A DNA stretch of 64,000 nucleotides, taken from NCBI RefSeq assembly GCF_000763905.1, contig NZ_JRKN01000009.1, positions 62,001-126,000 of the forward strand, read 5' to 3'. The notes below the pieces were generated by a model. That model had not been told where the DNA came from, did not search any database, and worked only from the letters and a program-made list of their open reading frames with translations. Each line of letters opens with the position of its first letter. Within the stretch, counting starts at the first letter, position 1. Of this stretch, positions 38,378 through 40,745 are shown in pieces. The translations under genes and the position numbers were made by a program. Origin of the DNA: Paracoccus halophilus (GTDB lineage: Bacteria; Pseudomonadota; Alphaproteobacteria; Rhodobacterales; Rhodobacteraceae).

Positions 38378-38821
38378 ATGAAACTTTCCGACCTGTTTAT
38401 CAATCTTGCCGATGGTGCCCGCAATCTGGAGGAGCGGGTCAAGAAATGGCAGGAGGATCTGGAAGCCCGGAACGCGGATATGATGGAAAGCGCCCGCCGC
38501 TGGCAGGCCGATGCCGCCGCGCGCCAGGAAGAGCTGCAAAAGAAGATCCAGGGCTATCTGGACGATGCCAGCGACAATGTGCGCGCGCAGTGGAACGGCA
38601 TGCAGAAAAGCTGGGACGAGCAGGTCGCCCAGACCAGGGCCAAGGCCGAGGAGATGCGCAGCAAGGCCGAAACCATGACCGCCGAGGAAAAGGCCGACTG
38701 GCACGAGGCCTATGCCGCCACCATGGTCAATTTCGCCCAGAAGATGCAGGATGAGGCCAGCACCGCCGTTGCCGCCGCCGCCGAGGCGCGCGCCAAGGCA
38801 GAGGCGGCGAAAAAGGGGTGA
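38378..38821 (+). CDS. Small Ala/Glu-rich coiled-coil protein, unknown function
   Basis: The 147-residue protein is almost wholly helical with heptad-like spacing (ARNLEERVKKWQEDLEARNADMMESARRWQ; later NFAQKMQDEAS and AEARAKAEAAKKG). No signal peptide, membrane segment or catalytic motif is visible. AAGGAG sits about 8 bases before the ATG. A consensus-like TTGACA occurs at 38280-38285, but a good -10 element is not evident. A hairpin begins right at its stop codon. It resembles apolipoprotein- or phasin-like helical proteins in composition only. It stands between mltG and the GTA leader. Confidence 0.65.
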   Translation: MKLSDLFINLADGARNLEERVKKWQEDLEARNADMMESARRWQADAAARQEELQKKIQGYLDDASDNVRAQWNGMQKSWDEQVAQTRAKAEEMRSKAETMTAEEKADWHEAYAATMVNFAQKMQDEASTAVAAAAEARAKAEAAKKG

Positions 38822-38954: not shown

Positions 38955-38983
38955 TTGACTGTGCGAACGCCCTGAGGTAGAAA
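38955..38983 (+). promoter_or_regulatory. Strong candidate promoter of the GTA leader
   Basis: TTGACT at 38955-38960 and TAGAAA at 38978-38983 are spaced by exactly 17 bases, the best sigma70-like promoter noticed in the window. A start site 6-7 bases downstream would fall at or next to the ATG at 38990. Confidence 0.6.
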
Positions 38984-38989
38984 TTACCC

Positions 38990-39031
38990 ATGCTGGGAGA
39001 GGTGGGCAAGCGGCCGGGTCGGATGACCTGA
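38990..39031 (+). CDS. Possible 13-residue leader peptide ahead of the GTA cluster
   Basis: ATG at 38990 opens the frame MLGEVGKRPGRMT, ending at TGA 39029-39031. The ATG lies where the predicted promoter would begin transcription, so the mRNA may be leaderless. The last seven codons and the stop lie inside the terminator hairpin at 39010-39043, as in attenuators. No biased run of a single amino acid is seen (two Arg, two Gly-rich positions), so what would stall the ribosome is unclear. Very short ORFs arise by chance; coding is unproven. Confidence 0.3.
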   Translation: MLGEVGKRPGRMT

Positions 39032-39043
39032 GGCCGCTTTTTT
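39010..39043 (+). terminator. Intrinsic terminator in the GTA leader
   Basis: GCGGCC at 39010-39015 pairs with GGCCGC at 39032-39037, with an inner GGTC/GACC pair, and six T follow at 39038-39043. It lies between the candidate promoter and g1, 55 bases before the g1 start, so transcription of the GTA genes from that promoter must pass it. Confidence 0.7.
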
Positions 39044-39097
39044 CATGTCTCGCTCGTGCGGACAGGCACACGAGGGCAGGGCGATACAGGAATGGTG

Positions 39098-39454
39098 ATG
39101 AACTTCGATCCGGGGCCCGGGGCGCCGGAAGGACCTTTCATGCCCGGCGCCGCCATGGCGCAAGACATGGATGTGGTCGAGATCGCGGATGGGCTGTTCC
39201 GGTCCTATGCGGGGGATCTGCACAAGCTGCGCCTGAAGATTCAGGCGGGCGAAACCGATGAACTGAAGGAATCCGGCAAGCTGGTGCGCGACCTTCGGGC
39301 TGCGGCGCAACTGGTGCTGGAGGAAAGGAACAAGGTTGACAAGCTTCGCAAGGACGCAGCCGGGAATGTCGGAGCAGGCACGCTCGACCTTGCCGCGGCA
39401 CGAGATGAAATCGGGCGCCGCCTGGCTTGCCTGCGCCGAGCCGGAGGAGGTTGA
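39098..39454 (+). CDS. GTA g1, small terminase-like protein
   Basis: The 118-residue protein has a disordered N-terminus (NFDPGPGAPEGPFMPGAAMAQ), a helical core (ADGLFRSYAGDLHKLRLKIQAGETDELKESGKLVRDLRAAAQLVLEERNKV) and the C-terminal AARDEIGRRLACLR conserved in GTA g1 proteins. In R. capsulatus g1 was shown to be an unusual small terminase that recruits DNA weakly and without sequence specificity. The ATG at 39098 is chosen for AGGA 7 bases upstream; ATG 39092 and GTG 39056 are in frame. It overlaps g2 by about 89 bases. Confidence 0.8.
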   Translation: MNFDPGPGAPEGPFMPGAAMAQDMDVVEIADGLFRSYAGDLHKLRLKIQAGETDELKESGKLVRDLRAAAQLVLEERNKVDKLRKDAAGNVGAGTLDLAAARDEIGRRLACLRRAGGG

Positions 39455-40745
39455 CGAATTCCTGGGCGCGCTGAGCGACAATGCGCTGGCAAGCCTGCCC
39501 TGGCTGTTCGAGTTCTGGGCCCTGCCGCATCAGTTGCCCCCGGCGGGTGACTGGAAGACATGGGTGATCATGGGCGGGCGCGGCGCCGGCAAGACCCGCG
39601 CCGGGGCCGAATGGGTGCGCGCCCAGGTCGAGGGCGCCACGCCCGAGGCGCCGGGGCGCGCGCATCGCGTGGCGCTGGTCAGCGAGACCTTCGATCAGGC
39701 GCGCGATGTGATGGTCTTCGGGGATTCGGGCATTCTGGCCTGTTCGCCCCCCGACCGCCGTCCGCAATGGGAGGCCGGGCGGCGCAGGCTGGTCTGGCCC
39801 AATGGCGCCACCGCGCAGGTCTATTCGGGGCATGAGCCCGAGGCGCTGCGCGGCCCGCAATTCGATGCCGCCTGGGTCGATGAACTGGCCAAGTGGAAAA
39901 AGGCCGAGGACAGCTGGGACATGCTGCAATTCGCCCTGCGTCTGGGCGAGCATCCGCAGCAGGTCGTGACCACGACGCCCCGCAATGTCGCGGTGCTGAA
40001 GCGGATTCTGGGCAATGCCTCGACCGTGACCACCCATGCGCCGACCGATGCCAACCGCGCCTATCTGGCCGAAAGCTTCCTGACCGAGGTCGAGGCGCGT
40101 TATGCCGGCACAAGGCTGGGCCGGCAGGAACTGGAGGGGCTGCTGCTGGATGATGTCGAGGGCGCGCTTTGGACCACCGCGATGATCGAGGGCTGCCGGG
40201 TCGAGGCGGCGCCGAAACTGTCGCGGATCGTGGTCGCGGTCGATCCGGCGGTGACCGGCGGGGCTGGTTCGGACGAATGCGGGATCGTGGTGGCCGGGGT
40301 GGTCTCGGACGGGCCGGCGACCGGCTGGCGCGGCTATGTGCTGGAGGACGCGACGGTGAAGGGCGGGCCGACCGACTGGGCGCGCGCGGCGATTGCCGCC
40401 ATGGACCGGCACGGGGCCGAGCGGCTGGTGGCCGAGGTCAATCAGGGCGGTGATCTGATCGAGAGCGTGATCCGCCAGATTGATCCGTTGGTGCCGTTCC
40501 GGGCGTTGCGCGCCGGGCGCGGCAAGGGGCTCCGCGCCGAGCCGGTGGCGGCGCTTTACGAGCAGGGGCGCATTCATCACCTGCGCGGGCTTGGTGCGCT
40601 GGAGGACCAGATGTGTCGCATGACGCTGCATGGTTATGACGGCAAGGGATCGCCCGACCGGCTGGATGCGCTGGTCTGGGCGATCCATGAGCTGATGATC
40701 GCGCCGGCGGCGCGGGACCGGCGACCGCAGGTGCGGGGCTTGTAA
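39366..40745 (+). CDS. GTA g2, large terminase
   Basis: The 459-residue DNA-packaging motor shows the ATPase Walker A GGRGAGKTRAGAEW, an acidic Walker B region (FDAAWVDELAKWK), the coupling segment VVTTTPRN, and nuclease-domain acidic residues in IVVAVDPAVTGG and ALVWAIHEL. The start is uncertain: ATG 39366 (MSEQARSTLPRH) has AAGGA upstream, while ATG 39405 (MKSGAAWL) would lie nearer the usual family start; both overlap g1. It packages random host DNA headfuls in GTAs. Confidence 0.93.
   Translation: MSEQARSTLPRHEMKSGAAWLACAEPEEVDEFLGALSDNALASLPWLFEFWALPHQLPPAGDWKTWVIMGGRGAGKTRAGAEWVRAQVEGATPEAPGRAHRVALVSETFDQARDVMVFGDSGILACSPPDRRPQWEAGRRRLVWPNGATAQVYSGHEPEALRGPQFDAAWVDELAKWKKAEDSWDMLQFALRLGEHPQQVVTTTPRNVAVLKRILGNASTVTTHAPTDANRAYLAESFLTEVEARYAGTRLGRQELEGLLLDDVEGALWTTAMIEGCRVEAAPKLSRIVVAVDPAVTGGAGSDECGIVVAGVVSDGPATGWRGYVLEDATVKGGPTDWARAAIAAMDRHGAERLVAEVNQGGDLIESVIRQIDPLVPFRALRAGRGKGLRAEPVAALYEQGRIHHLRGLGALEDQMCRMTLHGYDGKGSPDRLDALVWAIHELMIAPAARDRRPQVRGL

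Follow-up and report, generated by a model that had tools for sequence, protein, structure and literature searches.

What lies between the promoter of a GTA operon and its first gene, and what might RNA polymerase have to overcome on the way? In the Paracoccus halophilus DNA analyzed here (the window, a stretch of 64,000 nucleotides), a GC-rich hairpin followed by six T is found about 50 nt 5' of GTA gene g1, close behind a promoter-like sequence. The initial annotation saw an attenuator-like leader in which a ribosome moving through a leaderless 13-codon frame would cover the left arm of a terminator, or else a small RNA of about 55 nt, and held that neither is described for GTAs. In R. capsulatus, the activator GafA is reported to have bound one out of five probes, a 50-bp one lying 76 to 125 nt upstream of g1, and this probe is stated to contain the -10 element and the transcription start (PMC6363796). 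The C-terminal part of GafA binds the same probe, and the N-terminal part binds the fragments flanking it (PMC9638019). In Caulobacter, GafZ, which is like the C-terminal part of GafA, was shown experimentally to be an antiterminator that lets polymerase pass terminators; its binding element lies between -35 and -10. GafZ is reported to lack sequence or structural similarity to known antiterminators, and its authors raised antitermination by GafA as a possibility (PMC11150451). A paper on antitermination in the Bartonella GTA is cited by title in PMC13236601. The claim that nothing of this kind is described for GTAs thus fails for antitermination, which is already known; the leader terminator itself was not found in print. 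The main texts of PMC6363796 and PMC9638019 have no word starting with "terminat," and among titles and abstract starts, a coverage that leaves most subscription journals outside, no report was found that places a compact terminator ahead of g1 and after the transcription start of an RcGTA-type cluster.

Results

The site and its surroundings. Direct sequence reading confirmed TTGACT, a 17-nt spacer, TAGAAA, TTACCC, ATG, and a hairpin with T6 at 38955 to 39043 (Table 1), and the geometry given in the initial annotation (promoter, ATG at 38990, 13-codon frame, hairpin, and six T) was borne out. The neighbors of the site are, on one side, a small ORF together with fabF- and mltG-like genes and, on the other, an RcGTA-type cluster that includes terminase, portal, prohead protease, and HK97 capsid. 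The product of g1 gave no Pfam or NCBIfam match; we take its identity from its position before TerL and from the RcGTA gene order. A 147-aa ORF at 38378 to 38821, between mltG and the GTA promoter, has a weak, sub-cut-off apolipoprotein-like Pfam match. Generic promoter and terminator scans of the window listed neither this promoter nor this terminator, the former because its -10 element is far from consensus and the latter because the loop limit was 8 and the stem is bulged. The pattern TTGAC...GTANAA...ATG, which was composed after the site had been seen, has one match in the 64-kb window versus 0 expected. When up to 3 mismatches are allowed, the promoter pattern occurs at 22 places in the whole genome versus 40 for the reversed control, and the exact pattern occurs at the GTA site only. 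It is the conservation of the site, described below, by which we judge that it is not a chance pattern. A comparison of the window with Rfam gave 0 families above the gathering score, and between 38900 and 55000 on both strands there are 9 terminator-like sites versus 7.2 in shuffles, that is, no excess.

Table 1. Features of the GTA leader and the first GTA genes, in window coordinates
Feature	Position	Strand	Remarks
-35 element TTGACT	38955-38960	+	TTGA invariant, C in 99/100 family rows
17-nt spacer	38961-38977	+	Conserved CGNNCG core (CGAACG, 38964-38969); candidate GafA loading element
-10 element TAGAAA	38978-38983	+	First position T in 94/100, second position A in 99/100
Predicted transcription start (A 38990) and conserved initial transcribed sequence	38990-39009	+	Consensus A[A/T]GCT[A/G]GAAGAAGTGGGCAA
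13-codon frame MLGEVGKRPGRMT	38990-39031	+	ATG 38990-38992, TGA 39029-39031; judged not a conserved gene
Outer stem, 5' half (GAGAGGTG)	38997-39004	+	
Predicted intrinsic terminator	39010-39043	+	Hairpin 39010-39037 (arms GCGGCC 39010-39015 and GGCCGC 39032-39037; inner GGTC/GACC), U-tract 39038-39043; fold, conservation, covariation
Outer stem, 3' half (CATGTCTC)	39044-39051	+	3' of the U-tract
Second conserved hairpin CTCGTG...CACGAG	39053-39074	+	Double changes in 6/6 pairs; 95.5% of cells paired
GTA g1 (small terminase position)	39092-39454	+	Start ATG 39092 or 39098
GTA g2, terminase large subunit (TerL)	39336-40745	+	Pfam Terminase_6N and 6C; true start uncertain; anchor for relatives

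Conservation and distribution of the leader. Loci for comparison, both the genus loci and the named loci, were chosen by their terminase and not by their leader. Within Paracoccus, a terminase was found in 119 of 125 genomes, own genome included, and 38 loci were read from these 119 genomes (25 with top terminase scores, 12 from genomes drawn as relatives, and that of own genome). The block is present in all 38, in 37 of them by the strict pattern, and the last one has TTGGCT. A covariance model of 126 positions (R1), for which the window plus 33 named loci served as input, matches the window and 80/80 named loci selected by TerL. The 33 building loci are among these 80, which are the best 80 of 446 relatives by terminase and hence close to the window. 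The best-scoring terminase relatives with names are Paracoccus species, and R. capsulatus SP108, R. viridis, R. maris, Phaeovulum veldkampii, Paenirhodobacter enshiensis, and Pseudothioclava arenosa are also among the matched loci. At family scale, R1 matched 255 of 394 genomes (254 of 393 genera), nearly always with one copy per genome. TerL was detected in 353 of the 394 genomes and in 250 of the 255 R1-positive ones, and in 100 of the 101 places present in both tables the leader precedes a same-strand TerL by 211 to 307 nt; in the single exception the two are on different contigs. At class scale (289 genomes), R1 had 4 matches, namely, own genome, one more member of the family, and 2 weak matches outside the family.

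Five genomes match R1 and have no TerL match, and three of them were read. Two of these loci (L149 in G334 and L178 in G452) kept mltG and the leader and lost the terminase and more GTA genes, so they look like GTA clusters with internal deletions; in L178, by eye, the start of g1 is fused into a capsid-like remnant. In a third (G312), the contig ends 433 nt past the leader. Conversely, 103 of the 353 TerL-positive family genomes have no R1 match. We read 16 of these 103, all those among the 150 TerL places listed, and found a terminator-like hairpin in the leader zone in 9, versus 0.94 expected from shuffles. The other 7 have no scored hairpin in the scanned zone, and one of them (L176) has one just beyond it. 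By eye, several of the 16 have no ATG at the start position. Control in these lineages may differ.

Viral sequences were searched as well. With blastn, the 146 bases gave nothing at E 0.01 against 50,697 phage records. A 20-base leader pattern was found at 65 loci in viral contigs (L266 to L330), of which 53 match R1 (14/22 and 39/43) and 52 have a GTA-like TerL; one short stretch (L290) carries MltG, and the remaining 12 have neither TerL nor an R1 match. We rejected phage carriers of the leader, since the carriers on viral contigs look like GTA clusters. As a side observation, many IMG/VR entries of the leader-bearing kind are probably chromosomal GTA clusters.

Promoter, spacer element, and predicted start. 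The following counts are based on 100 distinct family rows, comprising the window, R. capsulatus, L180, and 97 further family genomes. With each row anchored at CAAGGTAG, C-1, A+1, T+5, G+7, and A+11 are invariant, and +1 to +24 are strongly conserved. The transcription start is predicted at the A of CATGCTAGG, and the ATG that had been called leaderless coincides with this expected +1, 6 nt 3' of the -10 element. In R. capsulatus (L130), the predicted start precedes g1 by 94 nt and thereby falls inside the GafA-bound probe. The spacer contains CGNNCG in 84 of the 100 rows versus 9.5 expected from shuffled spacers, and its position agrees with that same probe (PMC6363796), which makes the spacer core a candidate GafA binding element. 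In the 70-mers directly upstream of the promoter, the IHF consensus was present in 13 of 100, as a raw count. The half-sites TTAAC/GTTAA, which we take to be CtrA-like, occur in the 80 nt 5' of the -35 element in 66 of the 100 family loci versus 20 expected from shuffles. CtrA is reported not to bind the R. capsulatus GTA promoter (PMC6363796). By eye, we also saw in R. capsulatus that the GTA promoter is separated from the upstream gene by another hairpin with a T-run, so read-through from upstream may already be blocked there.

The 13-codon frame. The would-be start triplet is AAG in 57 of the 100 family rows, ATG in 42, and ATA in 1, and frame length among the 42 rows with ATG varies between 4 and more than 130 codons. 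Of 81 full-length rows in the Paracoccus-dominated set, 80 have the ATG, with frames of 10 to 163 codons; only 33 of these 80 frames end ahead of the U-tract, and the position of the stop is scattered. P. albicereus (L069) has AAG at the start triplet and keeps the rest of the block. The third codon positions are slightly more variable (1.30 bits versus 1.57 and 1.73 at the first and second positions in the 42 ATG rows), and this is the single point favoring coding. We rejected the leader ORF as a regulator. As the alignments read, what is conserved here is not a reading frame but the first transcribed bases, A[A/T]GCT[A/G]G. What had been expected of GTA-bearing relatives, that they would keep both promoter and ORF, holds for the promoter in the loci matched by the model and does not hold for the ORF.

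RNA structure of the leader. Folding of the 54-nt stretch gave -25 kcal/mol (z -3.2), a value reached by 1 of 200 shuffles; termination is predicted at the hairpin and U-tract. In the 100 rows, 94.9% of the cells are paired, versus 85.8% in shuffles and 35 to 60% in slid controls, and double changes occur in 21 of 22 pairs versus 9.8 in shuffles, with 0 of 500 shuffles as high; these rows were found and aligned with the structure-bearing model R1, so that their pairing counts lean toward structure. RNAalifold on alignment A1 gave 20 pairs, 3 of them with double changes, and did not predict the outer stem. The outer stem was first spotted by eye and then tested statistically. It joins +8 to +15 to the eight bases after the U-tract, and in the window 7 of its 8 pairs form, with one mismatch. 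In the 38 genus loci, with the arms anchored by sequence alone and relatedness uncontrolled, 279 of 304 cells are paired and 0 of 2,000 shuffles were as high. Among 10 loci tested from lineages without an R1 match, it is clear in 1 (L162) and not significant in the other 9, so the outer stem is not universal. As its 3' half lies beyond the U-tract, the outer stem is possible only in read-through RNA.

Folding of 100 leaders, each ending where the model match ends, gave a probability of at least 0.8 for the terminator stem in 100/100, and there was no alternative fold without this stem within 15.8 kcal/mol of the best. We therefore rejected an RNA switch with alternative folds, and folding gave no antiterminator structure that a ribosome on the leader could promote. 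With no competing fold, relief by refolding is unlikely, which points to a factor acting on the polymerase.

DUF6456 in leader-bearing genomes. GafA carries DUF6456, and own genome has one match to it (PF20057, E 7e-59); the search also matched the Caulobacter control genome. DUF6456 is present in 249 of the 255 R1-positive genomes, with six lacking a match, and in 360 of the 394 family genomes, including 111 of the 139 without an R1 match; 18 genomes have DUF6456 and no TerL. Since the domain is also common without R1, its co-occurrence with the leader supports a role for GafA weakly.

Discussion

The conserved hairpin suggests that the production of GTA particles depends on a helper, probably GafA, that gets polymerase past it. 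The explanation that we favor, and consider probable, is a promoter-proximal terminator of the GTA operon that is overcome by GafA, as at phage Q sites and with GafZ. The leader would consist of a sigma-70-like promoter and some 45 to 50 conserved transcribed bases, with an intrinsic terminator ahead of g1. Unaided polymerase would stop at the U-tract and free an RNA of about 50 nt. GafA, the GTA-specific activator, would load at the promoter via the spacer element and the start region and make polymerase ignore the terminator, and g1 and the rest of the operon would then be transcribed in GafA-containing cells only. In the read-through RNA, the 5' end would refold as a longer hairpin, followed by the second hairpin, and it is possible that this refolded end protects the message or helps the elongation complex. 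Termination, GafA as the reliever, and the role of the outer stem are what we infer here; the binding of GafA to the promoter, the antitermination by GafZ, and the position of the start together would make the leader terminator the natural first target of GafA.

The closest published system is the control by GafY, GafZ, and IHF in Caulobacter crescentus, which has a related GTA structural operon and a DUF6456 homologue. There, too, a regulator is reported to bind at the core promoter and a terminator early in the operon must be bypassed, both of which are predicted here. The Caulobacter terminator is described as three 150-bp GC-rich repeats after the first gene, unlike the Paracoccus leader with its compact hairpin about 45 to 50 nt after the start and before g1. 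Its binding element is given as the palindrome GCGCCCG-CTGGCGC (PMC11150451), to which the spacer element with CGNNCG is a loose match. The Caulobacter promoter, sought in the 289 class genomes for direct comparison, was not found. The lambdoid Q systems (lambda pR' and phages 21 and 82; discussed in PMC11150451) share the order of promoter, short leader, intrinsic terminator, and late structural genes. Their antiterminator element lies between -35 and -10, the interval that holds the candidate CGNNCG here. Both the sequence and its conservation indicate a Q-type arrangement, in which an intrinsic terminator closely follows the promoter and the late genes come after it. Q-type sites also have a sigma-dependent pause in the initial transcribed region, a stretch whose sequence is conserved in this leader, and a dedicated antiterminator protein, for which GafA is the candidate here. 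The leader is shorter than lambda 6S RNA.

An unlikely but reasonable alternative is that the terminator is an unregulated filter, reducing both basal transcription and read-in by a fixed factor, and that GafA only recruits polymerase. GafA is published as contacting the omega subunit of polymerase in R. capsulatus, potentially recruiting polymerase (PMC9638019; PMC11150451), so activation without antitermination is possible. Such a filter would be useful because GTA release kills the cell, as reported for Caulobacter (PMC11150451). The hairpin and T-run 5' of the R. capsulatus promoter argue against it, as they make insulation from upstream look redundant, and so does the precedent of GafZ, which is one of antitermination.

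The preferred reading, a terminator relieved by GafA, could be extended to the RNA itself. Once read through, the outer stem and the second hairpin might form a cis-acting RNA that keeps polymerase, acting with GafA and perhaps Nus factors, resistant to terminators across the operon. This is a speculation to which we give a small chance. If true, it would be a DNA-and-RNA-loaded antitermination module that is conserved in about 250 of the genera sampled and that Rfam does not match in the window.

It is improbable that the terminated RNA of about 50 nt is the main product and acts in trans, although the strong conservation of the first 24 transcribed bases and the strong predicted terminator would fit such a small RNA. 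The pairing of the outer stem beyond the U-tract implies selection also on the read-through RNA, the promoter spacer and the second hairpin are conserved too, and the matches are nearly always single and adjoin the GTA operon. Of the small RNA originally proposed, a by-product is possible and a main function less likely.

Very improbable, in our view, is antitermination by RNA of the HK022 put or Bacillus EAR type, in which the folded leader itself would modify polymerase for later terminators. These systems also have a structured RNA shortly downstream of a promoter that drives a long operon, and two covarying hairpins in the promoter-proximal leader and an outer stem that forms only after read-through are in line with them. 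Unlike in put and EAR, the first hairpin here is followed by a U-tract, as in terminators, and no Rfam family reaches threshold in the window. The absence of an excess of terminator-like sites within the cluster also speaks against this type, and antitermination by a protein of the GafZ type is the nearer precedent.

The translation-coupled attenuator has hardly any probability left: the ATG at the predicted start in the Paracoccus-dominated set and the variable third positions favor it, but, unlike trp-type attenuators, with which it shares a terminator in the leader after the promoter, this leader has neither a conserved ORF across the terminator arm nor a mutually exclusive fold. Of the attenuator-like leader in the initial annotation, the promoter and the overlapping terminator thus stand, with deep conservation, and the translational coupling falls away.

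For the archetypal GTA of R. capsulatus and its relatives, these results offer a concrete conserved predicted terminator that GafA would need to overcome, and the published suggestion that GafA is an antiterminator is now directly testable. They also provide a structured leader without an Rfam match in the window, together with a sequence signature by which the GTA control region may be recognized in much of the family and a predicted start of transcription.
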